From contig JACPHN010000110.1 of assembly GCA_016188575.1 (NCBI GenBank), forward strand, positions 59,882-123,881: DNA of 64,000 bases. Direction: 5' to 3'. Made by a program: the position numbers and the translations under genes. The notes under the pieces are model-generated. The model saw nothing but the letters and a program-made list of their open reading frames with translations, made no database searches and had not been told where the DNA came from. Within the stretch, counting starts at the first letter, position 1; the number at the start of each line of letters is the position of its first letter. Positions 7,207-56,966 of this stretch are shown here, one piece after another. The DNA comes from Candidatus Schekmanbacteria bacterium (GTDB lineage: Bacteria; CSSED10-310; JACPHN01).

Positions 7207-10200
7207 ATGAAACATGCGAGCGCGTTGCGCGCGCCCGAGGGTGCCCGCGGCGCGCGACTCCGAGCCTGGTCAGGCAGCTTGGTCGGTGCCGTCGCTCTGC
7301 TCGGCATGGCTCTCGGCGTACCCTCGGCCGGCGCCTTGATCGCCGGAGACTCGACGATTCTCCCCTCGCGCGCGGGCAAGGTGCACGTGCAGTGGCGGGA
7401 TTTCAAGTGGGAATACGTCGAGCTCGGACTGCGCGACCCCGAACCAGGATCCGAGGAGGCCGAGAAAGGAGAAAAAATCGGCGGAGTTCGCCTCTACTAC
7501 TACAGGCAAGAACAGGATCTGGCGCGCCGTGCTATCCCGGTCATTGAGAGCGATATGGCCTACCTTGAGGAGCAGTTTCACTACAAGACGCGGCGAACCA
7601 TTCCGTACGTGCTCTATTCGTCGCATGAAGAGTTCGAGCAAACTAACCTGTTTGACATCAGTGAATCCATCCTCGGTGTGACCTCTCCGACCGATCTCAA
7701 GATGAGCATGGCCTACTGGGGCGAGCACAAACGCTTCGCCATGGTAAGCCGTCATGAGATGGCACATCAGTTCACCGTGCAAAAAGTATACGACATCGCC
7801 GAAGACTACGAAACCGAGAAAACGCCGCTCCTTGAGATCCCTCTGTGGTTCATAGAAGGCATCGCCGAGTTCTACGCCAAGAACAAGGAGATCGATCCGG
7901 AAACCGCCGCCTTCGCTCGGGACATGCTCTACTACCCGGACAAGGATCGGTACTACAAGGTGCCTCGCTTCTTTGACGACTCCATCCAGAGCTACCCCCA
8001 CACGTACAAGATGGGGCAGCTACGCCTGGTTTACCTCGCGCAGGTCTACGGCGCCGATGTCCCGCAACGCGTCCTCGACATGAGCTACACGCTACAGCCG
8101 CGTCGAAAGAAGACGGATAACGACACCGTCAACAGCTTTCGCAGCTTGCTGAAGACCGTTACGGGAAAGCCGGCGCGGCAGCTTGACAAAGACTTCCGCG
8201 CCTGGCTCAAGAAGCAATTCCCACCGCCGATTCCCGAACCCGCCCCGAACGCCGCCGACACGCCCGCGACCCCAGTGGCCGGTGCGGTGGCCGCAGGCAC
8301 CGCCGGCGCACCGCCCGAAAGCCCCGGCGGCAAGGCCCCGCAAGCCGGCGCTACCGAACCGTCACCGCCGGAACCTCAGACCGCCGAGGAAAAGATCGTT
8401 GCGGCAGCGAGCTCCGATTCTGACAAGGAAAAATCCGACAAGAAAGGAGATGGTGAATCCAGCGCGGACGCGAACGCCGACGAGGATGAGGAAGATGACG
8501 ATGAAGACGTGGAAGAGGAGGAAGACGAGAAAGATGAAAAGCTCCCGAAATATCCACGCCGTCCTGGGCTACCCGAACCCTTCCACTTCGCCGCCGTCGG
8601 CGACACGATCGATCGCTGCTTGCCCGACACCGCATACGACCGGGTTTTCCTGCTCTGCCGGAAAATCGACGCGGATTCCGGAAACGTATCGCTGGTGCTG
8701 TACGACGAGCAGAAACCCGAGATCTCGCGCGAGGTTATTCGGGACGGCACGCACCACGTGGAGTCGCTGCACTTCATGGAGCGCCGGGTCATGGCGATTC
8801 AGAACGGGCGCATCGCATTCGCCGGCCGCCGCAGGGGAAGAGACATCATCTACGCGCAACCCTACCGGGTCAAGGATGACGACATTGCGCTCGGGCGCCG
8901 CCGGGCATACACCCTCCCGCATATCGTCGAGGTTGGCGAGCCGGCGTTTTCTCCCGATGGCAAGTTGCTCGCTCTTGTCGGATTGGATGATACCGGCGTC
9001 GAAGATCTCTACGTGCTGGAGTTGGACCAGCGCAAGCCGCCGGTCCGCATCACCGCTACGCCGTACAGCATGCAAAGCGTGGACTGGGGCAGCGACGGTA
9101 TCCTGATCAGCTCGGATGAGACTTCCACGGGTGCGTATAACCTCTTTCTTCTCAAGATCGACCCGTCGACTCTGGACTCGGAGTTTCAACCGCTTGCTTC
9201 CTTGACCGCGGATACGCGCTCCAGCCGCCTGACGCAAACCGACAGCGACCAGTCCGAGGCAGTGTTTTCCCCCGACGGCAGAATCCTCTTCGAGTCGACC
9301 GCTTCCGGCGCCCACGACATCTACGCGCTCGAAGAATGGCAATCGTCGGCGCCCGTCAGCCGCCGGCTCACCAATGGGTTTACGGGCTTCCAGCAGCCGG
9401 CGCCAAGTGGCGATTCCCTCTACGCTACCGGCTTGCTGGGGGGCAGGTATCGACTGTTCCGCCTGGACAAGAAGGACCTGTTCGCGGAGCCGGCTGCCGC
9501 GCCGACCGCCGCCGACGGCCAGCGCAAATGGCTGACCCTGGCCGAGCTACCCGGAAAGCCCCGCAGCTACCAGGCGATGCGGGGAAAGAACTGGCAGCTT
9601 GATGTCGCTCAGGCGATGATCTCGACCGCCGAACAAGGTGGCTCCGTTATTGCGTTTTCCGACATGCTGCGCGACCACTCCGTGGTCTTCCAGTTTTCGC
9701 TCTACGGAGACCTCGAGCTCGGTGACTTTTTTGGCCTCTACTTGAACCGCAAGAATCGGCTCGGTTGGGGAGTAGCCGCAGTGCACACGGTCCAAGTGCA
9801 GGTCGATCGCACCTTCGACCTCTCCGAATCGCGAGGGTACACCAACTACTATCGGCAGCGCGAGTTTGGTCTGGTCGGTCAGCTCGTCTATCCTTTCGAG
9901 ACCTTTGCTTATCTCGAGGTCGGCGCTTCCACCCTTGGCATTGATCGCTTCGATTTCTCGGATTACACGGGAGCTCTGGAATCACAGTGGAACAAGGAAA
10001 ACGAGAAGATAGAGCCCGAGCTCGAGCTCTACACGCAACTGGGGTTCGACACGATCTCGTTTCATCCTCTCACCGGACCGATTTCCGGTACTTCCTTGCT
10101 ATTGAAGGTCAGCGGCGCGTACCTGCCGGATCGCAGCGAGGTCTGGGGAGCGGCTCGCGTCGAGGCCATCAACTACCTACGCATCTATCGGTCCATCAAC

Positions 10201-10620
10201 CTGATGAGTCGGCTTGCGCTTGGCAGTGTTTCAGACAGCAGATTCGCGCGCCAATACTGGGTAGTACCCATGGATAATCTGAGGTCATACGGTTATTCAG
10301 ACAACAATCTCGTAGATAACAACTTCGCCGTGTGGAATGAAGAGCTTCAGATCCCACTGGACGCATTCCTCAAGAACGAGTTTCTTCGTCGCCTGGAAGG
10401 TATTTTCGGGTGGGACTGTGGCAGTGTGTTCACGAATCGCTCCACGACTTCATTCAAAGAGCACCGAAGCGCGGCTGGAGTTCTTGGTGTAAATCTCCTC
10501 TTGACGCCGTTTGTTGTCCGATTGCACTATGCCAAGTTCATTGACATTGGTGGAGCGGATGCTTATCAACCCTTGGACAGGGGGTGGAACTCGAACTTCA
10601 GTATTCGATACAACTTTTGA
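7207..10620 (+). CDS. outer-membrane protein: zinc-peptidase-like domain, TolB-like propeller, C-terminal barrel
   Basis: The 1137-residue protein begins with a long signal peptide (LVGAVALLGMALGVPSAGA). A gluzincin-like peptidase domain follows: HEMAH at residues 183–187, with the third ligand probably in WFIEGIAEF near 217. Next is a Pro/Ala-rich and very acidic linker (about 340–450, including an EEEEDEKDEK run). Then come TolB/WD40-like propeller blades (EPAFSPDGKLLALVG, SEAVFSPDGRILFES) at roughly 550–760. The C-terminal 350 residues have alternating beta-barrel character, with a DNLRSYGY motif like the Omp85 VRGY loop, and end in aromatic RYNF. The ATG has an AGGAGG site. I infer a surface or periplasmic protease-like assembly factor; the substrate is unknown. 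Confidence 0.75.
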   Translation: MKHASALRAPEGARGARLRAWSGSLVGAVALLGMALGVPSAGALIAGDSTILPSRAGKVHVQWRDFKWEYVELGLRDPEPGSEEAEKGEKIGGVRLYYYRQEQDLARRAIPVIESDMAYLEEQFHYKTRRTIPYVLYSSHEEFEQTNLFDISESILGVTSPTDLKMSMAYWGEHKRFAMVSRHEMAHQFTVQKVYDIAEDYETEKTPLLEIPLWFIEGIAEFYAKNKEIDPETAAFARDMLYYPDKDRYYKVPRFFDDSIQSYPHTYKMGQLRLVYLAQVYGADVPQRVLDMSYTLQPRRKKTDNDTVNSFRSLLKTVTGKPARQLDKDFRAWLKKQFPPPIPEPAPNAADTPATPVAGAVAAGTAGAPPESPGGKAPQAGATEPSPPEPQTAEEKIVAAASSDSDKEKSDKKGDGESSADANADEDEEDDDEDVEEEEDEKDEKLPKYPRRPGLPEPFHFAAVGDTIDRCLPDTAYDRVFLLCRKIDADSGNVSLVLYDEQKPEISREVIRDGTHHVESLHFMERRVMAIQNGRIAFAGRRRGRDIIYAQPYRVKDDDIALGRRRAYTLPHIVEVGEPAFSPDGKLLALVGLDDTGVEDLYVLELDQRKPPVRITATPYSMQSVDWGSDGILISSDETSTGAYNLFLLKIDPSTLDSEFQPLASLTADTRSSRLTQTDSDQSEAVFSPDGRILFESTASGAHDIYALEEWQSSAPVSRRLTNGFTGFQQPAPSGDSLYATGLLGGRYRLFRLDKKDLFAEPAAAPTAADGQRKWLTLAELPGKPRSYQAMRGKNWQLDVAQAMISTAEQGGSVIAFSDMLRDHSVVFQFSLYGDLELGDFFGLYLNRKNRLGWGVAAVHTVQVQVDRTFDLSESRGYTNYYRQREFGLVGQLVYPFETFAYLEVGASTLGIDRFDFSDYTGALESQWNKENEKIEPELELYTQLGFDTISFHPLTGPISGTSLLLKVSGAYLPDRSEVWGAARVEAINYLRIYRSINLMSRLALGSVSDSRFARQYWVVPMDNLRSYGYSDNNLVDNNFAVWNEELQIPLDAFLKNEFLRRLEGIFGWDCGSVFTNRSTTSFKEHRSAAGVLGVNLLLTPFVVRLHYAKFIDIGGADAYQPLDRGWNSNFSIRYNF

Positions 10621-11371: not shown

Positions 11372-11516
11372 TGGACCGAGCGGCGCAACGCGCCGCACTC
11401 AGGTGACCGTTCTTTCTGCAAAATGCCCCGCGAGGGGCAAAGCTTGCTACTGCGCCCGCCGGACGCCAAGACTGCATTCATAGGCAACAGGGACGCGGTT
11501 GCGGAGGACAGAACGA

Positions 11517-14500
11517 GTGGGAAGGCGGCTCCGGCGAATCGCTCTGTACGTGGGGTTGTGCCAGATTGGGCTGGTCACCGCCGCATTGCTCGTGCTTCAT
11601 TGCGGTCCGTTCCGCGCCTGGGTGGCCACCAGGGCGTCGGCGGCCATCGCCGGCGCCGCCGGCGTCGACGTCGCGATCGGCGCGGTCGACTACAACCTGT
11701 TGGCAGCGCGCGTGGCCGTCCGCGACCTGCGAATCGGTGCAAAGTCTGGTGCACGCCCGGCAGTTGCGATCGGCGAGCTGGCGGTCGCGCTTCCCGCTCG
11801 CGTGTTTCTCGGGCGCTTTGATCGCGTCACCTCTGTGGAGGTGCGTGGCCTGGAGATCGCGATCGGTCGCGCTGCGGATGGGCGGTGGACGCTGCCATTA
11901 CTGGAGCTTGGTGAGGATGCGCATGAGGCTCCCGGCACCCCGGCGCGGCCGTTCGTCCTGCCCCCATTCCGAATTGATCACGCCGCTCTGGAGGCGACCC
12001 ACCTCAGCTTTGACGACCGTTCGCTGCCGCTGTCGGTAATGGCGGAGGATGCGGCAGTGGAGGTCTCCTACGACGCGGAGCGCGGCGCGCACGCAGTGGA
12101 GCTTTCTATCGGCTCCGTCTCGGTCAGGACTGGTGATGGCGGCGCACAGGCGCAAGGCGTCGTCGAGCTGCACGCGCGTGTTACCGGTAACCGCGTCAGC
12201 CTGGACCACCTTGCTGTGAAGACGAGCTTTGCGACCGCAGAGGTGACGGGGGCGATCGACGATCTGTCCCGCCTCGGGTACCGCGCCGAGGCAAGGCTGT
12301 CGCTCGACCTTGCCGAGGTTGCCAAGTCAGGCGCGGTGCTCGGGTTGCCACCTGACCTGACGGGCACCGCCACGCTGCGCGCGCAGGTCGCCGGCGACCC
12401 GGTCGCCGTGGAGGCGAGCGGCGAGCTGGCCGCGGAAGGAGTGGGTGTCGCGGGCCTGCAGGCCATGGCGGTGCAGGGCACGCTGCATTTCGATGGCGAG
12501 ACCCTCGAGCTCGGCAAGGCGCGCATCACCGGCCCGGCATTCGCGGTCGGTCTCGAGGCGGCGCTTGCCCTGTCCGACACCGGCGCCGCCACGCGGCCCG
12601 CCCTGCGGGGGCACCTCGCAATCGAGCGGCTCAGCGGGCCGGCGCTGGACGCCGCAATCGGGCCGATCGGCGGTGGCCTCGCAACCGACGCTACGGGTCA
12701 CGCCACCTTTGCCATGGCCCGCTACTCCCTGGAGACGTTGACCGCCGACATCGATGTGGAGCTGTCGGAGGCAGTGTCCGTGCCCGCTCCTGACGCCGTC
12801 GGCAGCGCCGGTGCCCTGCGGGCTCGCGGCAACCTCACCGCGCGCATCGCGCCCACGACCCCGGCACCGCGGAGCGATTTGCTGATGCCGCCGATCGCGC
12901 TTTCCGGCAAGCGTCTCTGGTTTCGTGACCTCGAGGTTGGTGAGCTGACCGCCACGGTTGCCGTCGGCACGAACGCGGTGGGAGCTCATGGCCTGCGCAT
13001 CGCCGGCCCGCACGGGCGGATCGAAGGCACGGCCACCGTGCCCATCGCTGAGGATGGCCAACTGGTAGCAGACTTGTCGCTTGCGGGCGCGAATCCATCG
13101 ACGCTGCGAGACCTCATCGGCGAGGTGCCGCTGGACGGGGAGCTCGCCGCGACCATTACGGCGCGCGGGACCCTGGCCGTCCCAGACCTCGTCGCGGTCG
13201 TCACTGCCCCGTCTCTCGTTGCCAGCGGTGAGCCGCTGCGCGACCTCCGCATCGAGGCGGTGCTCGCAGGCACGCGAGCCGTGCTCCGCCAATGTCGCGT
13301 CGACCTCAGCGGTGGAGGGTCGGTCGCGGCCTCCGGGGAATACGACCTGGCAACGGAGAAAATGTCGCTGCGAGCGGAAGCGCGCGCGGTCAAGCTTGCG
13401 GCCGTGCGCGCCCTGACCGGCTCCATGCCGGAGCTCCAGGGCGAGCTGAACGCCGATGCAAGCGCCGCGGGCACAGCCACCGAGCTGCGTGGCGATCTGT
13501 CCCTGGCCGCCACCGACGTTCGACTCGCGCCGGCCGCCGCGCCCGCAGGACCAATCAGCCTTGGCGCTCGGTACGCCTACGCGAGCGGCGCCCTTCGCGT
13601 GGACGGCCTGTCGCTGTCTGTTCCTGGCGTCTCCGCAACGGCGTCGGCGGCTCTGCCGCTGAGCGCGGACACCCCCGGCGTCGACCGTCTGGCGGCGCGA
13701 CTCGACGCCGACGTGCGGCTTGAGACCGTCTGGAGCGCGCTGGCTGCAGCAAAGATTCTGCCAGACGACTTGTCACTAGCTCTGGACGGCGCGATTTTCG
13801 TCGAGGCTCGTCGCGAGCCCGCCGGACCCGGCCTGCTTGACGGCCTCTCTATCGATGCCACGTTCCACGACGTCAGCGCAGCGGCGTCTCCCGCCGCGCC
13901 GATAATCGAATCCCTGCGCGGCAAGCTGTCTTTGGCCGCCGGTGCCGTGCTCATTGACGCGTTCACCGGCCGCCTCGGCGGCAGTGCGTTTCGCCTGGCC
14001 GGGACCATCCCACTGGCGGCTCTGCCCGTCGACCTCCCCGTGCCGCCTCCGCCAGGTCCCCAGACAGGTCTCGACGTCTCGCTCGCCCTTGACGCCGTGG
14101 CCCTGTCGTCGCTGGTTCCGCTCGGAGACATTCCTGCGGACGCCGTCGTTGCTGCGGCGTTGCACCTCGGCGGGCGCCGTCTTGATCCCGAGGCGCTCAC
14201 CGCCGAGCTCGTCCTGTCTCGGCTCGAAGGACGTTACGAAAAGCTCAACGTGCGCAATGACGGCGACGTGCGGCTGCGCTTGGAGGGCGGCGTGCTGCGC
14301 ATCGAGCATCTGTCGCTCGTTGGACCGGGAACCTCGATCGTCATCGGTGGCGGCGCCGACATTGGCCACCCACAGGAGTCGACACTCGGGCTTGTCGGTT
14401 CCGCGAGCATCGACGCCGGGACGCTCTCCGCCTACGCTCCGGGGCTCGGCCTGAGAGGTCGGATCGACCTGGCCGTGCAGGTCGCGGGATCGCCCGCAGC

Positions 14501-17500
14501 GCCACAGCTCAGCGGCCAGGCGATTCTCAGCGATCTCGTGCTGACGCCGCGGGCCATGGAGGCGCGCATCTCTCACACCAACGGCAGAGTCGACTTTGCC
14601 GGGGACACCGTCCACATTTCCAAGCTTCAGGGCCGCCTCGGAGCCGGAAGCTTCGACGCCGCCGGGCAGGTAACGCTGGGCGCGGGTGGCGTCCAGAACG
14701 CGGCGGTCGATCTTGCGCTCAACGGTGTTACTGCTCGGATTCCTCCCGGTGTCCGTCTCGCCGCCGACGGCAAGCTCCGATGGGTCGCGGAGCGCGCCCT
14801 GTCCCCATCGCATCTCACCGGATCAGTGTCTTTGCGGCGCGGCCTGTTCACTGAGCCGTTCGATCTCGATGTCGCCTACCTCTTGGGACTCCTGAAATCC
14901 GGCGCCCCCACGGTTGCGCAAGAGCTCTCGATACTCGACACCATGAAGCTGGACCTGGCGGTGTCGCTCGGGCGCGGCTTCCGCGTCCGGAACAATCTCG
15001 GGAATCTTCTGGCCACAGGTGATCTGCGCGTGACCGGCAGCGCGACGTCGCCGCTCGTTTCTGGAGACGTGACGCTCGGCAAGGGGGGTGAGATTTACTT
15101 CTCGCAACAGACGTACCACATCGTGAGGGGGAAGATCGAGCTCGTGGCGTCGCAGCCGCACTTCGACATCGAGGCCTACGCCGACCCAGACGACAAGAGG
15201 CAAGGCCGGGAGGGCCAGCCAGAGCGCATCACCATCCGATTTTCCGGCACGCTTGACAGCCCTGAGGTCGATCTCGATGCCCCCGGAATGGACAAGGCGC
15301 AGGCCGCGGCGGCGCTGCTGACGGGCTCGAAGGATGCGGGGGCCGGCGGCGCCTCCGGCTATGCGATGCTCGCCGCGCACATGGGGGCCTACTTCGCTGG
15401 CCGCGGGACTGCCGACATCGAGAGCAAGCTGGCGAAAACGCTCCGCTTGTCCCTGGTCCGGATCGAACCCGAGCTGGTGGCCGCGCAAGAGTCGCGGCTC
15501 GGCACGGATCCCGGTGCCCGTCTCACGGTCGGGAAGTCCGTCCTCAGCTCGTTTTTTGTCGGCAACTCGACTAACCTGACCAACTCGAGCTACCAGCTCT
15601 GGTGGATCGATTGGAACGGCCCCGCCGGCCTTACGGGACGACTGGTGCGCGATGAGGACGAGCAGCTCATCGGCGACCTCCGCTTCGAAAAGTCGCTGAA
15701 CCTGCTCGGTCGCCGGCGTGCCGCGGGCGAGGTCGGACCGGGACAAGAGGCGCCCCCGACGATTCGCCGGATCCTCTTCGAGGGGGACCGTCCTGTCGCC
15801 ACCTGGCGCCTCAGGTGGACGCTGCAATCCCGCCGTTGGGCGGCGCTCGACGAGCTGGCGCTTCAAGACGACGCCGACGCCTTGAGGAAGCTGCTCCGCA
15901 AAAGGGGATACCGGGAGGCCGTGGTCGAGGTCGAAACGAGACCCGCGGGCGAGCGGCGCGGGCGGCCGCGCGTCGATGTCGTATTCAAGCTCGAGCCCGG
16001 ACCTCTCGTTGCCATTTCGCTCCAATCCGATGTCGTGGAGCTCCCGGTCACGCTCGAAAAGGATCTGGAAAACCTCTGGGACTTCGGCTTTTCCGACGAC
16101 GAGCTGGTCGCGGAAGGGAGCGAGCGCATCAGTGACTATCTGCGCACGCTGGGCTACGACCACGCCACGGTTACCGCCGACGTCTCGACATCGCCTCCGG
16201 ATGCCGGGCCGGCCGCCAAGCAGGTGACATACCATGCCGCGGCGGGAACGCGATCCACCGTCCCCGCAGTCCACATTCAGGGAGCCACCCTGTTCTCCGA
16301 GGAGCAACTTGTGGCGGCGCTCGCCCAGGAGCTGGGCGCCACGAATAAGGATCTGGCCCAGCTCGTGCTCGCCGATCCGCGATCGGCGTTGGGGACGTTG
16401 CAGGCGCTTTACGCGCAGACGGGCTACCTTCACGCCCAGCTTGATGGACCCCGTCTCATGATCGCGTCGGACGGCCGGCGCGAAGTGCTGATCGAAGTCG
16501 CGGAGGGCAAGCAGACGCGAGTGCGCCGGGTCGAGCTCTGCGGCGCGAAAAGTTTTTCGTCAGCCGAGCTGTCCCGGCAGGTCTACCTTGGCCCCGGGCT
16601 GCCGTACACCCCGGCAGCGTTTGTCCAAACCCGTAGCGCGCTGACCGGGTTTTACCACGCGCGCGGCTTTCTCGAGGCGCGCACGAGCGCCGAGATGCGG
16701 CAAACGACTGGCGCGGATCCCTGCTCGTCACCACCCACCCCGCCAGAGGGCAGCGCCACGACCCCGCCGTTCGCGACCGACGGCGCCCTGGTAGACGCGG
16801 TCTACACCGTCGCCGAAGGTACTCGCGCGATGGTGGAGGCGATCGACATCCGGGGCAACACGCGGACACCCGACTGGATCATCGCGCGGGAGCTGGAAAT
16901 TGCCCCTGGAGATCCGCTCGAAGAGGCGAGAATGACGCGAAGTGAGCGAAAGCTGCGGCTGCTGCGTCTGTTCGATCGCGTCGAGGTGACCTCGGAGCCG
17001 CTCGGCACAGACGGTCGTCGCCGCATCATCGTCTTCGTCGAAGAGCGGCCCGCGCAACGCGTTGCGCTGGGCGCGAGATACGGATCCGATGAGGGCGCCG
17101 AAGGCACGCTGGAGCTTCAGGGATTCAACATTGCGGGCACGGGCCTTGGGACCTCACTGCGGCTTCTAGCCAATGACCACCAACAAGACACCCGTTTCGC
17201 TTTGGATTTGCTGCCCGTACTCGCCAAGAAGCTCAAGACCACCGCGTTTCTGCAGCTTGCCGAACAAGACGATCCGGGCCTTTTTCAGAGGTGGAGAGGC
17301 TGGACGGTGCAGCAAAAAATCGCCGCGTCGGAGCGGATTGCCTTGTTCTACAACTATAACTATCGGCGCACCCGGATCCGCGAGAAGGAGTCCACCGGCC
17401 CCTTTCCCTTCGACCTCACCGTGAGCGTCGGCCGGATCACGCTCGGTCTGGTCGCCGATGGGCGCGACGACCCGTGGGATCCCAAGAAAGGGTATTTCGG

Positions 17501-18023
17501 CTCGGCGACTGTCGAGTATTCCGCCGACTTCCTTGACTCGGACCTGCCCTTCCTCAAGTTCTTTGGGCACGGCGCCGCATACCTTGCGCTGCCGCGCAAG
17601 CTGACGCTCGGAGTGGCCCTGCGAGCGGGCGTGGCGCGCCCCGCCCACGACCAGATTCTGCTCGGCTCTGAGCGCTTCAAGGCCGGTGGCGAGTCCACGG
17701 TGCGGGGCTATGAGCGTGATACCCTTGGACCCCGAAGCCGCTTTACCGATGTTCCGGTCGGCGGCGAGGGGATGTTCGTCGCCAATACCGAGCTGCGAAT
17801 TCCCGTCTATTCCATCGCCAGCGCTGTCCTCTTTGTCGATGCCGGCGAGGTGTATGCGGAATACCAGGACGTGTTCTCGCTCGATCTTCGCTATGCGGGC
17901 GGGTTCGGCGTGCGCGCCCAGACGCCCCTCGGCCTCGTTCGCGGCGATATCGCCTGGAAGCTCCACCGCCGCGAAGGAGAAAGTCCCTATGAGTTTTACG
18001 TCGGTCTAGGCCACGCCTTTTGA
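11517..18023 (+). CDS. TamB–Omp85 (TamA/BamA-like) fusion protein
   Basis: A single uninterrupted frame encodes about 2168 residues. Residues 7–29 form an N-terminal membrane anchor (IALYVGLCQIGLVTAALLVL), followed by a long AsmA/TamB-type beta-rich region. The TamB C-terminal domain (DUF490) spans about 1050–1395, with GEIYFSQQTYHIVRGKIEL and RFSGTLDSPEVDLDAPG. Five POTRA-like repeats follow (about 1413–1840), for example VPAVHIQGATLFSEEQLVAAL and VEAIDIRGNTRTPDWIIAREL. A 16-strand-type Omp85 barrel with the diagnostic GGESTVRGYERD loop ends in GLGHAF. TamB links the inner membrane to Omp85 proteins in lipid or outer-membrane protein transport. Here both halves are one chain, in the order that fits the envelope. 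GTG 11517 has GGAGG nine bases upstream; TTG 11499 would add six residues. Confidence 0.9.
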   Translation: MGRRLRRIALYVGLCQIGLVTAALLVLHCGPFRAWVATRASAAIAGAAGVDVAIGAVDYNLLAARVAVRDLRIGAKSGARPAVAIGELAVALPARVFLGRFDRVTSVEVRGLEIAIGRAADGRWTLPLLELGEDAHEAPGTPARPFVLPPFRIDHAALEATHLSFDDRSLPLSVMAEDAAVEVSYDAERGAHAVELSIGSVSVRTGDGGAQAQGVVELHARVTGNRVSLDHLAVKTSFATAEVTGAIDDLSRLGYRAEARLSLDLAEVAKSGAVLGLPPDLTGTATLRAQVAGDPVAVEASGELAAEGVGVAGLQAMAVQGTLHFDGETLELGKARITGPAFAVGLEAALALSDTGAATRPALRGHLAIERLSGPALDAAIGPIGGGLATDATGHATFAMARYSLETLTADIDVELSEAVSVPAPDAVGSAGALRARGNLTARIAPTTPAPRSDLLMPPIALSGKRLWFRDLEVGELTATVAVGTNAVGAHGLRIAGPHGRIEGTATVPIAEDGQLVADLSLAGANPSTLRDLIGEVPLDGELAATITARGTLAVPDLVAVVTAPSLVASGEPLRDLRIEAVLAGTRAVLRQCRVDLSGGGSVAASGEYDLATEKMSLRAEARAVKLAAVRALTGSMPELQGELNADASAAGTATELRGDLSLAATDVRLAPAAAPAGPISLGARYAYASGALRVDGLSLSVPGVSATASAALPLSADTPGVDRLAARLDADVRLETVWSALAAAKILPDDLSLALDGAIFVEARREPAGPGLLDGLSIDATFHDVSAAASPAAPIIESLRGKLSLAAGAVLIDAFTGRLGGSAFRLAGTIPLAALPVDLPVPPPPGPQTGLDVSLALDAVALSSLVPLGDIPADAVVAAALHLGGRRLDPEALTAELVLSRLEGRYEKLNVRNDGDVRLRLEGGVLRIEHLSLVGPGTSIVIGGGADIGHPQESTLGLVGSASIDAGTLSAYAPGLGLRGRIDLAVQVAGSPAAPQLSGQAILSDLVLTPRAMEARISHTNGRVDFAGDTVHISKLQGRLGAGSFDAAGQVTLGAGGVQNAAVDLALNGVTARIPPGVRLAADGKLRWVAERALSPSHLTGSVSLRRGLFTEPFDLDVAYLLGLLKSGAPTVAQELSILDTMKLDLAVSLGRGFRVRNNLGNLLATGDLRVTGSATSPLVSGDVTLGKGGEIYFSQQTYHIVRGKIELVASQPHFDIEAYADPDDKRQGREGQPERITIRFSGTLDSPEVDLDAPGMDKAQAAAALLTGSKDAGAGGASGYAMLAAHMGAYFAGRGTADIESKLAKTLRLSLVRIEPELVAAQESRLGTDPGARLTVGKSVLSSFFVGNSTNLTNSSYQLWWIDWNGPAGLTGRLVRDEDEQLIGDLRFEKSLNLLGRRRAAGEVGPGQEAPPTIRRILFEGDRPVATWRLRWTLQSRRWAALDELALQDDADALRKLLRKRGYREAVVEVETRPAGERRGRPRVDVVFKLEPGPLVAISLQSDVVELPVTLEKDLENLWDFGFSDDELVAEGSERISDYLRTLGYDHATVTADVSTSPPDAGPAAKQVTYHAAAGTRSTVPAVHIQGATLFSEEQLVAALAQELGATNKDLAQLVLADPRSALGTLQALYAQTGYLHAQLDGPRLMIASDGRREVLIEVAEGKQTRVRRVELCGAKSFSSAELSRQVYLGPGLPYTPAAFVQTRSALTGFYHARGFLEARTSAEMRQTTGADPCSSPPTPPEGSATTPPFATDGALVDAVYTVAEGTRAMVEAIDIRGNTRTPDWIIARELEIAPGDPLEEARMTRSERKLRLLRLFDRVEVTSEPLGTDGRRRIIVFVEERPAQRVALGARYGSDEGAEGTLELQGFNIAGTGLGTSLRLLANDHQQDTRFALDLLPVLAKKLKTTAFLQLAEQDDPGLFQRWRGWTVQQKIAASERIALFYNYNYRRTRIREKESTGPFPFDLTVSVGRITLGLVADGRDDPWDPKKGYFGSATVEYSADFLDSDLPFLKFFGHGAAYLALPRKLTLGVALRAGVARPAHDQILLGSERFKAGGESTVRGYERDTLGPRSRFTDVPVGGEGMFVANTELRIPVYSIASAVLFVDAGEVYAEYQDVFSLDLRYAGGFGVRAQTPLGLVRGDIAWKLHRREGESPYEFYVGLGHAF

Positions 18024-19646: not shown

Positions 19647-19799
19647 CTCCAGGCCGACGTGTGGCTGCCACTCTGCGGACCGCCGTAGCGCCAGCGGCGG
19701 TGCCCGCTCCGCCGGTCCCTAAACGCCCGGAATGGCTTTGGCGTATACTGCTTGCGGACAGATAACTCGTCGCCAACCCCCAAAAAGGTGCCTCGCCAG

Positions 19800-22700
19800 A
19801 TGATCCCATCACGACTCCGCTTCCCGATTGCAGCAGCGCTTCTTTGCCTGGGGTTGCTGGCCTCGACCGGCTCCAGCCGGGCCTCCGACTCCAGATTGCC
19901 GCTCGGTGTCGTGCCAACCTTCATGCTCGACCCGAGCACCTGGACTCCGGAGGCCATCGATGGCGCGGTGGCCGAGCGCGAGTCAGCGGCCCCAGGTGCC
20001 GGCACCGGTGGTCCCCTCATCCTGATCCGCGCGCGACTCTCGCCCTCGGGGGAGCTGGTGGCAGGCGAGTCGCTGTGCGCGCTCGCCGCGGCCGTCGCCC
20101 GGCATGGAGGAAAGGCCGCGCTCGCGCTCGAGCTGCCCGCCGGGGCCCAGGGCGCTGACCCGTATCTCGCCATCGAGCGCACCCTCGTGGCCTGCGGCGC
20201 GCAGCTCTCCGCCGTCGCGGTGGCGCTCAGCAGCGCCACGCACGCCGATAACGCCGACGAGCTGGACCGCCTCGTCTACGCCGTCCGTCGCTGCTCGGTG
20301 CTCGCGCGCGGGCTGCTGGGATCGGCTGCTGCCGTGCTCGTCGGACCGCTTGACGCCGCCGAGCGCGGAATCGGAAAGGCGCTCTACGAGCGTGGCATCG
20401 ATCCCTACGCGGATGGCATTCTGATCGCCGGGGAGACGGTGGAGCCGGGATCGCAGGTGGGCGCGACCGAGGTCGAGGCGATGCGCTCCGACGTTGCTGC
20501 CGCGGAGTCGGGCGATGCGGTAGTTGTCATGCGCCCGTGGCCCGCGACACCGGATGGGGAAGCCTGGGACGGCCTGCTTCGCCTTACCGCCGAGTACGTC
20601 ACCTCCGGAGTCTCGGGGGTAATCGACAACCCGTCGCCCGCCGCAGTCGCCGCCGCATTTCGTCTGGCCCGCGTGCTTCCGGGCACGGTGGCGCGCGACG
20701 TCGGTCTCGACGTGCGCGTCGCAACTCCTGGGCCCGCGGCCGCGGCCGGCTCTCGCCGGCTGCTGCTCGCCGCACTGGTTGACTCGCGGGACCTCGCGAC
20801 CTGGGTCGTCGGCGTGCTTCCCGCGCAGTCCAGGATCGAGCTCGGATCGAGTTGGTACGACCGGGCCGGCGTTGTCTTCGACCAGACCGGAGACGAGCTT
20901 CCCGTTTCCCTCCAAGTCGGGGATGGCGTCACCAAGGTCTCCGCTCCCAGCACTTCGGGCGGCATCGTGCTGCGCGCGCCGCGGCCCGGCATCGATGCGG
21001 AGGGCATGCTTCGCGTCTCCGAGGAGGTGACGTCGACGCGGGAGCTCGGCGTCGAAGAAATCATTGTTCGGCATCAGGCCGTGCGGGCGGCGGAGGAGGC
21101 CCGAGTCAGTGCGTGGACGGTGCGGAGCCGGACGGCCATGCGCCTGCGCGCGCCTCAGGCCGGGCAGCTCGTCGAGCTCACCATCGATGGCTCGCTGCTC
21201 CATCGCCGCGGGCAGGGCATCGAATGGGTGTGGGAAACGTTCTTCATCAACGGTGTTCGCTGGCCGGGTGAAACCGCCCCGGAGCTCCCCATCCTGGAAC
21301 CCGACAAGATGGCTAAGGCGCCGCTCGAGCTGCGGCTGGGCCGCGATTACTCCTATCGGCTGCTGGGTCACGACTCATGGAAAAGCTATCCATGCTACGT
21401 TGTCTCGTTCCGACCCGACCCGAACGCCCGCCTGGATGCGCAGAAGGAGCTGGTCAGCGGCGTTGCCTGGATCCATCGGGATACCTTTGCGCGCGTGTAC
21501 GTGCAGACGCTGCGTTCGGATCTCGGCAGCGAGGTCGTAGCGACCGAGGAGAGGACCGAGTACGAGCCCATTTCGCCCAAGGATGGAAAAGCCACCCTTC
21601 CCACCGATCCAGGCGCTGTCTGGCTCGCTTCCCGCTTCCTGGCGGACGAGACGCTAAGCGTTTCGGGCCGAACCGTCTTCCTGGAGCGGGAAACAACGGC
21701 CTCCGCGTATGCGGTCAACCCGGTGGACTTCACCGCGCGGCGCCAGGCGCTTCACGCGACGAAGCATCGCATCCTGAAACAGACGGCCGATGGGTTGCGG
21801 TACCTGGCACCCGCAACAGGAACTTCCTCGGGAGAACGCACGATGCTCGAAGCGCCGCGGCGTTCGCGCTGGGCGGCCATCGGCGGGGTTTTTGTCGATG
21901 ATGCCGCCGATGCCCCGCTGCCGCTCGGCGGTGTGAGTTACTCAAACCTGGATTTCAAGGGAACCGGCTCGCACGTCAACCTGTTTTTCGCCGGCGTGCT
22001 CAGTACCGTTACCATCGCACGCCCAAACCTCGGGCTGTGGGACCTGGACGGACACGTCGACGGCTTCGCACTGCTTTACCCCATCGCCGACACACCCTAT
22101 GAACGCGGCGAGCCGATTACCGCCGAAACCGTCACCACCCGCGTTGGCACCCTCGCTTTCGGGGTCGGGCGTCAGCTTGGTGTCTTCAGCCGGCTGCGCC
22201 TGAGCTATGAATACACCTACCGCAGCTACGGGCGTCACGCCGACACGGCGGACGCGTTTGTCGAGCCCGCCGACACGGGAGTGCACGGAGGTGAGCTCGA
22301 GCTGTCATTCAATCGGCACGGGTACGGTCTCACCGCGACCTACGCCCTCTCATACCGTGATCGATGGCGTCGCTGGGGGTATCCGGAAAGCGCGGAGTAC
22401 GATCCGGCGCAGCGACGGTACCAGCACTGGGGGCTGCACCTGTTCAAGGCGTTTTCATTTTCAGGTTACCAGCGCCTGCAATTTTCTGCCGCGGCTGCGG
22501 GCGGTCGTGACCTCGACCGCTTCAGCCGCTACCAGGTCGGCCTTTTTGGGGGTAACGCCGTGCATGGATTCAAGTCCGCTTCGCTGCGCGGCGACGATCT
22601 TTACTCGGTCCACGCCAGCTACGGCGTTAGTCTACGCGAGGTCGTGCGGTTGGAGGCGCTGTACGATCGCGCGTGGATTCGCGACCGGACAGACTCGACT

Positions 22701-22850
22701 GGTTTCCGGGCCATTCACGGCGTTGGTCTCGCCGGCGAGTGCGTGCTGCCCTGGCAAATCATGACCCGCTTTGACATCGGCGTGCCCATCGATCCGCCTT
22801 CCGGGCTCGACGGTTTCGTGGCGAGCGTCGTGCTGCTCAGGTTTTTTTGA
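19800..22850 (+). CDS. large outer-membrane barrel protein with unrecognised N-terminal domains
   Basis: The protein is about 1016 residues from ATG 19800; an upstream in-frame start at 19752 is possible but lacks signal-peptide character. The signal peptide is FPIAAALLCLGLLASTGSSRA. Residues 30–400 form an alternating alpha/beta region I do not recognise. Residues 420–620 resemble LolA/MucB-type lipoprotein-sorting folds (YSYRLLGHDSWKSYPCYVVS, SGVAWIHRDTFARVYVQTL). From about 688 the sequence is barrel-like, with GGNAVHGF where Omp85 barrels have VRGF, and it ends in LLRFF, a typical outer-membrane C-terminus. No POTRA domains are visible. I infer an outer-membrane protein; the role is unknown. 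Confidence 0.65.
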   Translation: MIPSRLRFPIAAALLCLGLLASTGSSRASDSRLPLGVVPTFMLDPSTWTPEAIDGAVAERESAAPGAGTGGPLILIRARLSPSGELVAGESLCALAAAVARHGGKAALALELPAGAQGADPYLAIERTLVACGAQLSAVAVALSSATHADNADELDRLVYAVRRCSVLARGLLGSAAAVLVGPLDAAERGIGKALYERGIDPYADGILIAGETVEPGSQVGATEVEAMRSDVAAAESGDAVVVMRPWPATPDGEAWDGLLRLTAEYVTSGVSGVIDNPSPAAVAAAFRLARVLPGTVARDVGLDVRVATPGPAAAAGSRRLLLAALVDSRDLATWVVGVLPAQSRIELGSSWYDRAGVVFDQTGDELPVSLQVGDGVTKVSAPSTSGGIVLRAPRPGIDAEGMLRVSEEVTSTRELGVEEIIVRHQAVRAAEEARVSAWTVRSRTAMRLRAPQAGQLVELTIDGSLLHRRGQGIEWVWETFFINGVRWPGETAPELPILEPDKMAKAPLELRLGRDYSYRLLGHDSWKSYPCYVVSFRPDPNARLDAQKELVSGVAWIHRDTFARVYVQTLRSDLGSEVVATEERTEYEPISPKDGKATLPTDPGAVWLASRFLADETLSVSGRTVFLERETTASAYAVNPVDFTARRQALHATKHRILKQTADGLRYLAPATGTSSGERTMLEAPRRSRWAAIGGVFVDDAADAPLPLGGVSYSNLDFKGTGSHVNLFFAGVLSTVTIARPNLGLWDLDGHVDGFALLYPIADTPYERGEPITAETVTTRVGTLAFGVGRQLGVFSRLRLSYEYTYRSYGRHADTADAFVEPADTGVHGGELELSFNRHGYGLTATYALSYRDRWRRWGYPESAEYDPAQRRYQHWGLHLFKAFSFSGYQRLQFSAAAAGGRDLDRFSRYQVGLFGGNAVHGFKSASLRGDDLYSVHASYGVSLREVVRLEALYDRAWIRDRTDSTGFRAIHGVGLAGECVLPWQIMTRFDIGVPIDPPSGLDGFVASVVLLRFF

Positions 22851-22873: not shown

Positions 22874-25800
22874 CTACGGGCGCCCCGGCACCAGCCCATA
22901 CACCAGCGGCACGTCGTCGTACCGCCACCCGAGCGATTCGACTTCCCGTCCCTGCGCCGGCCCCGCCGCCGCCGTGTCGCTCACGGCCATCTCGAAAGGT
23001 CGGGGAAACAGCTCGCTCACCTCCGCGGTCAGATACCTGTCGATTTCGGCCAGCGGCGAGGAAATGTCGCGCGTCTGCCACGATGCGACGCCCAGCGCCG
23101 CGAGAATCTGCTTGCCGCGCTCGTCGCCCGCCATGCCCTCGAGCGTCACGGCCAGCTTGGCAAGCTGCAAATTATCCATGGATCCTCCGCGCACAGCCAC
23201 CGCCAGGCCCGGGTAGCCGCGCGACACGCTTGCGATCCTGGCCTTGCCCTCTTCCACGAACATGCGGAGTAGCGGATGGTCGACGGGCACCAGGGCGGCG
23301 GCCGCCTTGTTCAGCCGCAGCGCCAGCAACGCATTGGAAGGCGAGTCGATGGCCACGAGCGGACCAAAAAACCCGTCGGACGGGACCTCGCCGGCAAACA
23401 GCCAGCGCGCCACGAAATCCTTGTAGCTCGGGGATACGTTGGTCACGATCAGACTTTGACCGCGCAGATCCAGCAGCGTCTTGGCCTCGCTGCTGCCCGG
23501 AACGACGACCGCGAAACGTCTCCCTTCCCTTTCGTTTGGGTCTCGGCTGATCGCGACTGGGCGAAGGTCGTGTCTGGACCGATTGGCGATCAACAGGACC
23601 GGATCGACAAAAAGAAGCGCGGCGCTCCCAATGGCCGCGGGATCCTCGATGTCTTGGTGCCGGCTATACACGTTCAACTTCAATGACCGATCCACTGCCA
23701 CGTGATCCCGAACGTAGCTCGCCAGCGCATCCGCGACCATGAGCGCTTCAGCCGCATCCCGGAACGGGCCATCGAGCCAGCAAAAGCCCACTGCGAAGTC
23801 ATCCGTGCCTGCTGCTGTGGACTCCGGCGGGGAAGGGGCGGCAGCCAGGGACTCGACCGGCGTCACCCGTCCGTCCCGCAGCAGGCCGTGCGGATTCTGG
23901 AGCTCCAAGCCCAGCATCGTTGCCTTGGACTTGCGCCACTCGGCTGCTCTTTGAGCCATCGCTCCGCGCAGGCTCACATACTTGTCAAAGAGCTCGAGCG
24001 CGGCTTTTTCGTCTCCCTGTACGCGATCCCGGCAAATGGCCAGATTCAATACCGCGGGAGCGAAGTCCGGCGTCGCGCGCAGCAGGCGCTCGAGCTGTGC
24101 CATCGCCTGGTCGCGCTGTCCCCCGCTAAATGCCGCCACCGCCGCATTGTTCGCGATCGCCGGACTGGTCGTGTCGCGCCTGGCGGCTTCGGCCAGCGCC
24201 GTGGCGGCTTCCGCGGTTCGCCCCGCGTGGTAGAGCGCAACGCCAAGGTTGTTGAACGCGTCCGCGCTCGCCGCCCCACTCTTGATGACTTCCTGATACG
24301 CCGTGACTGCCGCCGAATAGCGCTTCTGCGCCAGCAGGCCCTGGCCGGTTGCCAGGCCTGCCGATTGCGCCACCGCTTCGCCCTGCTCTCGCTTCGCCGC
24401 GGACACGGTCTGCAGCGCCGCTTGTGCCGCCGCCCCCTCGCCCGCGCGAACCAGGGCCGCGGCGAGATTCAGTCGCACCTGATCGAGCTGCTCCGCAGTG
24501 GCACGCCCCGGCATCGCCTTCAGCGCCGCCTCGAACCCTTCGGCTGCGGACCGATACCGGCCGAGCTCGTATTCGAGCAGCGCCAGGTTTGCCCGTGCCG
24601 CTCCGTTTTCTGAATCAAGCTCCAGCGCGCGCTCAAGATGGCGCCGGGCGGCGACTTTGTCTCCCCCTTCCAGCGCCAGCACGCCGAAATTGTACTCCAG
24701 GACTGCCGAGTCTCGCGCCACCGTCTGGCCCTTTTCGAGCGCCTGCGACGAGCCTGCGCTATTGCCCACCTCCCGGCGCAGAATCGCCAGGTTGTTGAAG
24801 TACCGCTGAGCCCATGAGGCGGCCACGTGATCGGCTCCTCCCTCGTATGCCGCCAACGCCTCCTCGGAGCGCCCCAAGCCGCGCAGGATGTCCCCCTCGA
24901 GCGCGCTCACGCGCGCCTGCACCTCGTCATGGGCGCTCCTGCTCACGTCGCTGCCCACGTCCGCCGCCTTCGCTCGCGAGATCGTGGCCAGGGCCTCCTT
25001 GTCCTCACCTCGGCGGTGTTGCACCAGTGCCAGATTGTAGTAGGCGAGTTTCTTGCCGCCGTTCTCGGCCGCGTCCTTGAAGAGCGCCTCCGCCGCGGCG
25101 ACGTCGCCATCGGCATAGCGCATGACCCCAAGGTCGAAGCTCGCGCGCGGGTGTCGCGGCTGCGCAGAGAGCACCTGCTGTACCTTCTGCGCCGCATCCT
25201 TGTGCTTGCCCTCCAGATACAAGGCCCGGGCCGCGAGCATCTTTCCTTCCGCGTCCTCGCCGGCCTCGATCAGCTTGTTGGCATAGCCGAGCGCCGCGTC
25301 GGTGTCCCCTTGCTCCAGGTGAAGCCGCCCCAGGTTGGCGAAAGTTTCCGGATCGGCCGACTTCGGCGCCACCTTCAGCGCCGCCGCGTATTGAGCCAGT
25401 GCCCCCGCCGCGTCTCCCTCGCGAGCGAGAAGATGGCCGAGCGCAAACTGCGCTCGACCCAGCCCCGCATCCAGCGACAGCGCTTGCGACAATGCCGTGC
25501 GCGCCGCCGCGAAATCCCCCTGTTCGGTGAGAGCTTTCCCGAGGTAATATGACGCCACCGACGACCTCGGCTGCGCGGCGGCGATCTGCGAGAAGGTCGT
25601 CCTGGCCTCCTCCAGAGCACCCCGCTGCCCAAGAATTCCCCAAAGACCGGCATACGCCGCCTCGAGAGCCGGGTCCATACGAATGGCGGCGCGATAGCTT
25701 TCCAACGCCTCTTCTGTCTTCCCGAGCTTCTGCCGCGAGGCGCCCAGGTTGTAGTAGATCAGCCCGTACTTCGGCTCGGGAGCTTCCCCGCGACTCGCCT

Positions 25801-26539: not shown

Positions 26540-26558
26540 CCCCGATCGGCCTTCAATC

Positions 26559-54533: not shown

Positions 54534-56966
54534 ATGAACCAGCAGCGACTTCGCATCCTCCCACCGTCGGGGCCTTGGCTTGTTGCCGCCGCCGTGCTTT
54601 TGACCCTCGCGACGCCATTGTGCGCTCCCGCCGCTCCGGTGGCCGCCGGACAGCAAGAGATCGGACCTCTGGAATTCGTCCCCAGCGAAACAGGCAAGAC
54701 AATCCTCAAGGTGTCTGTTGATGGAAATGTGTTGATCAATGCGGACACCGTTCTGTTTCGAGTTTCGCTGAAGCCAGGCGACCCTTTCGATTCCGTCAAG
54801 GCTCGCAATGACATCAAGGCGTTGTATGCAACCGGCTTTTTCAATGACGTTCAGGTCGATGTCAAGGAAACTGCTGCAGGTTTGCTGCTGACCTATGTTG
54901 TTGACGAGAAGCCGAGAATCAGACAGGTCGTGCTCAGTGGATATGAGGCGCTCAAGGAAGACAAGATTCGTGAGGTATTAACTGTCAAGGAAGATGGCAT
55001 TTATTCTCCTGCGGCAGTAAAAGAGAGCGTCGTAAAGATCAAGGAGGCCTACCTCGAACAGGGTTATTACTTCGTAGATATCATTCCCGTAGTGCAACCC
55101 GTTGGAAAGAAACTCGTCGAGCTCGACTTCCAGATCGATGAGGGCCAAAAGCTCCTCGTTGGTTCAGTCGCGTTTACAGGCAACAAGAGCTATCGTACCG
55201 GGCGTCTGCGGCGCGTGCTAAAGGAAACGCGGCGGCACTGGTTCCTTTCCTGGCTCACAGGCAAGGGCAAATTCAATCCGGACCTGTTTGAGCAGGACCT
55301 GAAACGCGTCGAGGAATTCTATCAGGACCGCGGGTTCGCTGCGGCACACGTTGGTCAACCCGAGCGACAAATCACGACGACCAAGAAACGCAAGGCGTTT
55401 AGCAAGCAGGAGAAGATCATCCGCAAGGTTCGCCTTACCATTCCGATCGAGGAAGGACCGCGATACCGCATCGGCGAGGTCGTGATCGAAGGTAATACTC
55501 TCCTGACTGAGGATGAGCTCCGAAAAGTCATTTCCCGCGCCACTCAGGAGAAGACCCGTGGTGTCTTTTTCGGTCGCGCCGCCAAGCTGCGCAAGGGTGA
55601 CTACTATAGCCGAGCCGTGCTCCGGCAGGCGGTCCAGCTCATTACCGACGCCTACGGACACAAGGGCTACATCTACGCCGACCCGCGCCCCAGGCAAAAG
55701 ATCAATAATGAGACCTTGACCGTCGACGTCCTCTTCCAGGTCGATGAGGGCGTGCAGGCAAGACTCGACCGCATCGAATTCAAGGGCAACACCCGGACGC
55801 GCGACAAGGTGATGCGGCGCGAAATCAGCATTCCTGAAGGCGGGGTGTTCGATACCGTGGCCCTACGTTCCTCCCTGCAGCGGCTTTCCTACCTCGGTTT
55901 TCTTGAGGAAGTCGTTCCTGACGTGCGGCCTCAAGAAGATCCTACCCAGGTCGAGCTCGTCGTCTCGCTCAAAGACGAACGGCGCACCGAGCTGCAGGTG
56001 GGAGGAGGCTATAGTTCGGTTGATAAGTTCTTCGGGCAGATATCGCTTTCCGAGTACAACCTTTTCGGCAATGGACAGGAGCTGCAAGTCTCGGCGCAAA
56101 CCGGACAAAAGAGCTCTGTCTACCGCTTCCGCTTCGCGGATCGCTATTTTCTGGATACGCGAAACTTCTTCAGCTTCGACATCTTCCGCACGCTTACCGA
56201 GTTCCCCGACTTTGAACAGCGAACTTCCGGAGGCACCATCTTCAGTGGGCGGCGATTGGCAAATTTCCTGGATTACCGAATCGGCTACACGTACAAGCTC
56301 GTCGATATTCTCAATGTGGCGCAGGATGCCAGCAGCGACGTGCTTCTCTCGGACCCAAGCTCGGTCAGCTCGTCGATTACGCAATACCTGGTCTACGATT
56401 CACGCAATAACCAGTTTGAGCCTACGAGTGGCTCGCGGCTGCGTCTGACCGCTGAGTACGCCGGCGGACTCGTCGGCGGCGATAATCAATTTTACAAGTA
56501 TATTGCGGACGCGGTCCACCATTTTTCCCTACCCCGGGATTCCTCGTTCATGGTTCACGGTCAGTTGAGCTACGCGGATGGCTATCTTGGGGGCGCACTT
56601 CCAGTGTTCGAGCGGTTCCGGCTTGGCGGTGAGCAAACCGTGCGGGGCTTTTCCCGCGATTCGATCGGACCGATCCGATCTGATGGAGATGCCGGCACCG
56701 GTAACAAGTCGCTACTGTTCAACACCGAGCTTGTTGTGCCGCTGGCCGGTCCGCTAAAGGCCGTCCTGTTCTTCGACGCGGGCGACGTTTATGCACGTTC
56801 TGAGGACTATGATATCCGCTCCCTGCGCACCAGTGCTGGAGCCGAGCTGCGCTTCTTTGTTCCAGCGTTTACTGTTCCATTCCGCTTCATCTGGGGTTTC
56901 AACCTTGATCCATGGGAAGGAGAGGACGGCAACTTGTTCCAGTTCACATTGGGAAGTTCCTTCTAA
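54534..56966 (+). CDS. bamA: outer-membrane protein assembly factor BamA
   Basis: The 810-residue protein has a signal peptide (LVAAAVLLTLATPLCAPAAP), five POTRA domains, for example FRVSLKPGDPFDSVKARNDIKALY, VLSGYEALKEDKIREVL and DRIEFKGNTRTRDKVMRREI, and an Omp85 barrel with the GGEQTVRGFSRD loop near residue 702. It ends in FTLGSSF, with the C-terminal Phe expected of outer-membrane proteins. BamA inserts beta-barrels into the outer membrane. It heads the skp–lpx operon after the esterase-like gene. It is separate from the TamB–Omp85 fusion, which has its own barrel. Confidence 0.97.
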   Translation: MNQQRLRILPPSGPWLVAAAVLLTLATPLCAPAAPVAAGQQEIGPLEFVPSETGKTILKVSVDGNVLINADTVLFRVSLKPGDPFDSVKARNDIKALYATGFFNDVQVDVKETAAGLLLTYVVDEKPRIRQVVLSGYEALKEDKIREVLTVKEDGIYSPAAVKESVVKIKEAYLEQGYYFVDIIPVVQPVGKKLVELDFQIDEGQKLLVGSVAFTGNKSYRTGRLRRVLKETRRHWFLSWLTGKGKFNPDLFEQDLKRVEEFYQDRGFAAAHVGQPERQITTTKKRKAFSKQEKIIRKVRLTIPIEEGPRYRIGEVVIEGNTLLTEDELRKVISRATQEKTRGVFFGRAAKLRKGDYYSRAVLRQAVQLITDAYGHKGYIYADPRPRQKINNETLTVDVLFQVDEGVQARLDRIEFKGNTRTRDKVMRREISIPEGGVFDTVALRSSLQRLSYLGFLEEVVPDVRPQEDPTQVELVVSLKDERRTELQVGGGYSSVDKFFGQISLSEYNLFGNGQELQVSAQTGQKSSVYRFRFADRYFLDTRNFFSFDIFRTLTEFPDFEQRTSGGTIFSGRRLANFLDYRIGYTYKLVDILNVAQDASSDVLLSDPSSVSSSITQYLVYDSRNNQFEPTSGSRLRLTAEYAGGLVGGDNQFYKYIADAVHHFSLPRDSSFMVHGQLSYADGYLGGALPVFERFRLGGEQTVRGFSRDSIGPIRSDGDAGTGNKSLLFNTELVVPLAGPLKAVLFFDAGDVYARSEDYDIRSLRTSAGAELRFFVPAFTVPFRFIWGFNLDPWEGEDGNLFQFTLGSSF

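Follow-up and report, generated by a model that had tools for sequence, protein, structure and literature searches.

TamB and a five-POTRA Omp85 protein in one chain: a recurrent fusion that probably acts as a one-piece translocation and assembly module

The translocation and assembly module (TAM) is known as a pair of separate proteins, TamB and an Omp85 partner. Can the two also be made as one, and what would then become of the way in which they meet? These questions are raised by a 64,000-nucleotide stretch of a Candidatus Schekmanbacteria genome (contig JACPHN010000110.1, positions 59,882 to 123,881; hereafter the window), in which a single gene encodes both parts. An initial annotation had described TamB and a five-POTRA Omp85 protein in this chain of 2168 residues. 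The observation is confirmed by the open frame, by domain matches and by AlphaFold2 models, and the fusion is frequent in two bacterial groups.

One chain with both parts

Along the frame, a profile search of the translation recovers a DUF748/AsmA-like region, the TamB domain PF04357, POTRA and Omp85, in this order from the N to the C terminus, so that the Omp85 part does follow the TamB domain. Two AlphaFold2 models depict an N-terminal helix and a β-groove followed by the terminal strands of TamB; a short linker of low confidence then leads on to five POTRAs and a 16-strand barrel. The terminal region of TamB (model positions 281–395) is predicted to consist of helices and five strands, where E. 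coli TamB has six. The features are as follows.

11517..18023, forward: tamB-omp85 fusion gene; 2168 codons plus stop, GTG start, in-frame TTG upstream at 11499
11520..11597, forward: predicted N-terminal membrane helix, residues 2–27 (AlphaFold2 model m6066ecad5996; hydrophobicity)
11523..12071, forward: DUF748/AsmA-like N-terminal region, residues 3–185 (Pfam PF05359, 51.1 bits, cut-off 50)
11667..15041, forward: TamB β-groove body, residues 51–1175 (strands throughout the AlphaFold2 model; low confidence at about 383–457 and 511–533)
14625..15581, forward: TamB C-terminal domain PF04357, residues 1037–1355 (Pfam, 89.6 bits, cut-off 22.4)
15519..15698, forward: TamB terminal β-strands (pseudosubstrate region), residues 1335–1394 (model strands 336–395; junction alignment)
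15699..15758, forward: linker, residues 1395–1414 (low model confidence; no hydrophobic signal sequence)
15759..15995, forward: POTRA 1, residues 1415–1493 (AlphaFold2 model)
16005..16241, forward: POTRA 2, residues 1497–1575 (AlphaFold2 model)
16269..16502, forward: POTRA 3, residues 1585–1662 (AlphaFold2 model)
16518..16814, forward: POTRA 4, residues 1668–1766 (AlphaFold2 model; POTRA_2 match 1669–1725)
16830..17045, forward: POTRA 5, residues 1772–1843 (AlphaFold2 model; PF07244 match 1773–1843)
17055..18008, forward: 16-strand Omp85 barrel, residues 1847–2164 (AlphaFold2 model; the chain's last residue is Phe)
17700..17711, forward: VRGY motif, residues 2062–2065 (sequence; invariant alignment columns)
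54534..56966, forward: separate canonical BamA of 810 residues on the same contig (TIGR03303, 567.1 bits, cut-off 297.15)

Relatives of the fused chain were collected in three protein searches. The first used the POTRA-barrel part only, with candidates limited to 0.55–1.75 times the full length, and matched 35 other proteins; two more, with queries from members of two groups, yielded 326 and 537 hits with E values up to 1e-5, of which 120 each were listed. Among the resulting 270 listed proteins, the window's own included, Omp85 follows TamB in all 269 that hold both parts according to our own profiles, the exception being P0036 with 1236 residues and POTRA and Omp85 only. A C-terminal Phe is found in 267 of the 270. 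Where an organism is named, the label reads Acidobacteria or Acidobacteriota, Thermoanaerobaculia or -aceae, or plainly ‘bacterium’. The same order thus occurs in many genomes, and with hundreds of matching proteins in the databases the architecture is not unique, as the initial annotation, which knew of no described protein of this kind, might have suggested. Public names for the fused proteins vary between BamA, TamA and TamB, which is why the fusion can escape anyone who looks for a separate tamA in Acidobacteriota. A contig scan with the single window protein as query found no relative, which we ascribe to unlucky patterns and do not take as evidence of absence.

Could an assembly or sequencing error nevertheless have fused two genes? 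The window's genome is a draft of 275 contigs, and neighbours within its phylum have tamB and omp85 as separate genes. Such an artefact is, however, refuted already by the relatives, which carry both parts in one chain and of which two lie on contigs of 8.4 and 8.8 Mb; nor is there a break in frame or composition inside the gene. In practice, this rules an artefact out.

Distribution and origin of the fusion

Fifty genomes from the phylum of an Acidobacteriaceae-titled genome served as the Acidobacteriota sample. TamB is present in 43 of them, and TamB and Omp85 share one frame in 16 of the 21 genomes tested, that is, in at least 16 of the 43. One genome of this sample, G297, carries two fused frames, on contigs C10 and C51. 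In a second sample of 37 genomes, from the phylum of G015, TamB was found in 36, and 24 of 25 tested genomes carry the fusion (24 of 36 TamB-positive); a second TamB outside the fused frame was seen in none of these 24. When named genomes were scanned with nine of these proteins as queries, 22 of the best 80 of 117 loci proved to be fused, and contig ends truncate a further two. The titles of the fused loci include Oligoflexia, Deltaproteobacteria, Proteobacteria and one Dadabacteria; the labels for the second group disagree. Taken together, fused chains are common among Acidobacteriota and in a second group, whose labels are of Oligoflexia/Deltaproteobacteria type.

A varied sample of 241 genomes contains at least two fused cases, the window's genome (G000) and G015, a lower bound given that the Omp85 check covered 17 genomes with long frames, that the list of matches was cut, and that a fused frame may have as few as 1558 codons (G311). 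In the seven other genomes of the window's own phylum, TamB and Omp85 lie in separate frames or TamB was not found. Three candidates were reclassified or set aside: L071, at first counted as separate, breaks off where its contig ends and clusters with a fused row, and is treated as a cut fused gene; G275 has a TamB frame of 1578 codons with its Omp85 on another contig and was not counted; and the unusually long TamB frame of G134 (2259 codons; G134:C191:18623-19729) holds no Omp85.

How would such a chain arise? The unfused kin are neighbouring tamB-omp85 pairs. In our set of 61 (one locus counted twice as L067 and L097, and L127 and L135 being close copies), the two frames overlap in 39 pairs, lie in the same frame directly after the stop in 10, and are separated by 13–495 bases in 12; the gene order is reversed in four loci, one of them in Terriglobia (L152). 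Nine of the ten same-frame pairs show, by eye, the last strand of TamB, one stop and then a signal-peptide-like stretch. Since the pairs abut in this arrangement, a deletion spanning the stop through the signal peptide would yield the fusion in one step. In the aligned junctions the last TamB strand is kept, followed by a short linker of non-conserved sequence and by POTRA 1. Peak hydrophobicity around the joint has a median of 0.83 in 43 fused rows (window 0.17, highest 2.06), compared with a median of 2.64 and a minimum of 1.65 in the N-terminal stretches of 20 unfused Omp85 partners, the compared stretches differing in length (60 versus 170). The partner's signal peptide has thus been lost.

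Did this happen once or repeatedly? In a barrel tree of 74 rows, a topology constrained to unite the 43 fused rows is worse by 89.7 log units, and a single fused clade is rejected (approximately unbiased (AU) test, p 1.7e-7). The simple reading would be two independent fusion origins; one old fusion with later splits could also account for the tree, whose root position is open to either reading. A third independent event, suggested by L060 inside the second group, is not claimed, as the tree that holds this group together is not rejected (p 0.125). The window's copy groups with the Acidobacteriota-type fusions and not with the separate pairs of its own phylum: in quick trees made without bootstrap, its barrel falls inside a 29-row, all-fused set (support 99) and its TamB part inside a 33-row set that is fused save for one long-branched row (support 97), and placing the barrel with the pairs of its own phylum is rejected (p 5.3e-5).

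This placement might hint at a misbinned Acidobacteriota contig, in which case the fusion would not belong to this phylum at all. We regard this as quite improbable. The tetranucleotide composition of three window stretches correlates with the genome's other contigs at 0.972–0.977, while those contigs correlate with each other at 0.972. Two other stretches of the same contig give 0.957 and 0.974 and the fused gene itself 0.964; an Acidobacteriota locus reaches 0.83, and the same-phylum genome G001, with its much lower G+C content, 0.25–0.39. The BamA of the window's contig groups with that of a same-phylum genome (support 99, in a tree that held no Acidobacteriota BamA), and the contig's polynucleotide phosphorylase (PNPase) is most similar to that of a same-phylum genome, if only narrowly (50 versus 49%). 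The contig thus looks native, and an ancient transfer or an old paralogue is a better explanation than a foreign contig. As the gene groups with Acidobacteriota-type fusions on a contig of native appearance, it was probably gained long ago from a lineage of that type.

Further genes were noted in passing. Two genomes of the phylum have two PNPase genes each (G000 on C235 and C238, G001 on C159 and C82). Upstream of the fusion, 7207–10620 (forward) encodes a protein of 1137 residues with a PD40 match and a weak TolB-propeller match, as well as a HEMAH motif and a barrel-like C terminus, both seen by eye. Downstream, 19752–22850 (forward) encodes 1032 residues with no Pfam or NCBIfam match at E 0.001 and an end that by eye looks like an outer-membrane barrel, and 22874–26608 (reverse) joins many tetratricopeptide repeats to a periplasmic domain of the phosphonate-binding type. 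At 29375–31573 (reverse) a diphosphomevalonate decarboxylase, over its cut-off, adjoins a mevalonate-kinase-like gene just under its own, with lipopolysaccharide-type genes, by eye, further along; the mevalonate pathway is unusual in such bacteria.

How a one-piece module may work

What, then, might the fused chain do? We favour, with a probability of roughly 0.7, a one-piece TamA–TamB module that likely forms a fixed bridge, along which phospholipids would pass from the inner membrane to the outer, and that would assist in folding some outer-membrane proteins as well. By analogy with the separate system, the predicted N-terminal helix would stay in the inner membrane, the β-groove would span the periplasm and hold lipid tails, and the C-terminal barrel, ending in Phe, would be inserted by the β-barrel assembly machinery (BAM). 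The last TamB strands (the final one at about residues 1385–1394), leashed to POTRA 1 by about 20 residues, would pair with barrel strand 1 (about 1847–1857), either in their own chain or in a neighbouring copy, whenever the lateral gate is open, as the hybrid barrel in cryo-electron microscopy (cryo-EM) structures of TamAB suggests. The bridge would be permanent, while its gate continued to open and close. Its 1:1 stoichiometry follows from the single chain, provided that this remains uncut, and has already been reported for separate TamAB (PMC12800296). The further proposal of the initial annotation, that transport could proceed without partner docking, is not borne out, since the chain retains the TamB end strands that serve for docking in the separate system.

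Whether the strands can reach their own barrel depends on the joint. Between the same alignment columns it measures 16–28 residues in the 32 Acidobacteriota-type rows; of the 11 second-type rows, all have 10–11 residues except L060, which has 30. A linker of about 20 residues would let the strands reach the barrel of their own chain if the POTRAs curl back. With the joint of the second group such pairing looks strained, and pairing with a neighbour, or none, would be the alternatives. More tentatively, and at somewhat less than even odds, we propose that TAM became, on no fewer than two independent occasions, one covalent inner-to-outer conduit, with the pseudosubstrate strands tied to their own POTRA 1 and a hybrid barrel that opens and closes within one chain or between neighbouring copies, so that TamB and Omp85 never need to separate in the working cycle.

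Several observations weigh against the one-piece module or its details. We know of no experiment on any fused TamB–Omp85 protein. The window's genome also has an unfused tamB-omp85 pair (C87) and a third TamB (C74), so the fusion is not its sole TAM. All four fused proteins tested score under the NCBIfam cut-offs for TamA, TamB and BamA; for the window's protein the values are 79.6 versus 625 bits (NF047950), 53.2 versus 825 (NF047952) and 249.5 versus 297.15 (TIGR03303). The groove model resembles lipid carriers weakly in Foldseek, its best match being the LPD-3 complex (E 1.2e-7, TM-score 0.16), with TamAB entries at E 0.05 and 0.18 only; in a sequence comparison with PDB chains, the TamB C-terminal part had no match. 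In the second group the strands may be unable to pair with the barrel of their own chain, given how short the joints are, and the low-confidence linker of the window's protein could be cut. Covariation between the TamB end strands and the barrel (mean-field; 269 sequences, effective number 146) was discarded as noise: the top 300 pairs include 30 between adjacent strands, and 70 between TamB and barrel where 88 are expected from the numbers of column pairs alone.

Two other ways of working deserve consideration. The chain might be made whole and then cut in the linker, giving ordinary TamB and Omp85 in equal amounts, in which case the fusion would serve co-production and co-export. Residues 1395–1414 are presumably flexible and linker sequences are not conserved, as such a cut would allow; with the signal peptide gone, however, the partner's signal-peptidase site is missing too, no common cleavage motif is visible by eye in 43 junctions, and most joints of the second group offer just 10–11 residues, which makes this unlikely. 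Slightly less probable still is a BamA-like insertase with a long TamB arm that mainly folds outer-membrane proteins, with lipid transport minor or absent. The five POTRAs, as in BamA, speak for it, as do the scores, which are higher for the BamA model (249.5 bits) than for TamA (79.6), and the assembly of outer-membrane proteins by purified E. coli TAM (PMC13382580). Yet a canonical BamA is encoded on the same contig, the TamB body is present at full length, and TamB has been tied to phospholipid transport (PMC12800296).

The one-piece module touches two open questions: how phospholipids arrive at the outer membrane, and whether TamB has to bind its Omp85 partner and come off it again. A natural fusion takes partner finding out of the problem, fixes the stoichiometry if the chain stays whole, and offers one gene and one chain for purification and imaging. 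Its recurrence in two groups, together with the short joint of one of them, makes the hybrid-barrel model directly testable.

Likeness to known systems

In open-licence PMC full texts, the scope of our search, which leaves out subscription papers and preprints, we found no description of TamB and Omp85 in one chain. The word ‘fused’ is absent from the main texts of a paper on TAM evolution (PMC4494059), a review in EMBO Rep. (PMC11014939), the TamL paper (PMC12045153) and the Borrelia paper (PMC13382580), and an Omp85 survey mentions one fusion-like case, with BamB (PMC4104836).

The closest counterpart is E. coli TAM, which shares the TamB anchor, groove, PF04357 domain and terminal strands as well as an Omp85 protein with POTRAs and a 16-strand barrel, all encoded by adjacent genes (PMC12800296). 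Its cryo-EM structures show a 1:1 complex with lipid-like density in the TamB groove, in two states, one of which has the last TamB strand paired with the first barrel strand of TamA (PMC12800296). It differs in being two proteins with three POTRAs, where the fusion is one chain with five, whose last TamB strand is no longer C-terminal but leashed to POTRA 1, the partner's signal peptide being lost. Five POTRAs and a 16-strand barrel are what the modelled Omp85 part would share with BamA. A similar strand pairing is predicted for BamA and TamB of Borrelia (PMC13382580), where a five-POTRA Omp85 protein works with TamB and the TamB strands are predicted to complete the barrel (PMC13382580; PMC11361582); there the two are separate proteins and BamA itself takes part, whereas the window's contig has a separate canonical BamA. 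The Borrelia study also notes that POTRA 1 and POTRA 5 lie close together in its model (PMC13382580). In Bacteroidota, TamL is likewise an Omp85 variant paired with TamB, but is described as a separate lipoprotein (PMC12045153). Omp85 WD40-like proteins do join Omp85 with a part resembling a BAM partner, BamB, and are described without an inner-membrane bridge (PMC4104836). For a single chain with parts in both membranes there is a precedent in the elongated MlaD of Veillonella, a proposed phospholipid bridge that links an inner-membrane domain to an outer-membrane barrel (PMC10665443). Its reported parts are an MCE domain, a helical span and a 10-strand barrel, with neither a TamB nor an Omp85 domain among them (PMC10665443); the MCE family, in turn, is absent from the nine domain matches of the fusion protein at E values up to 1.

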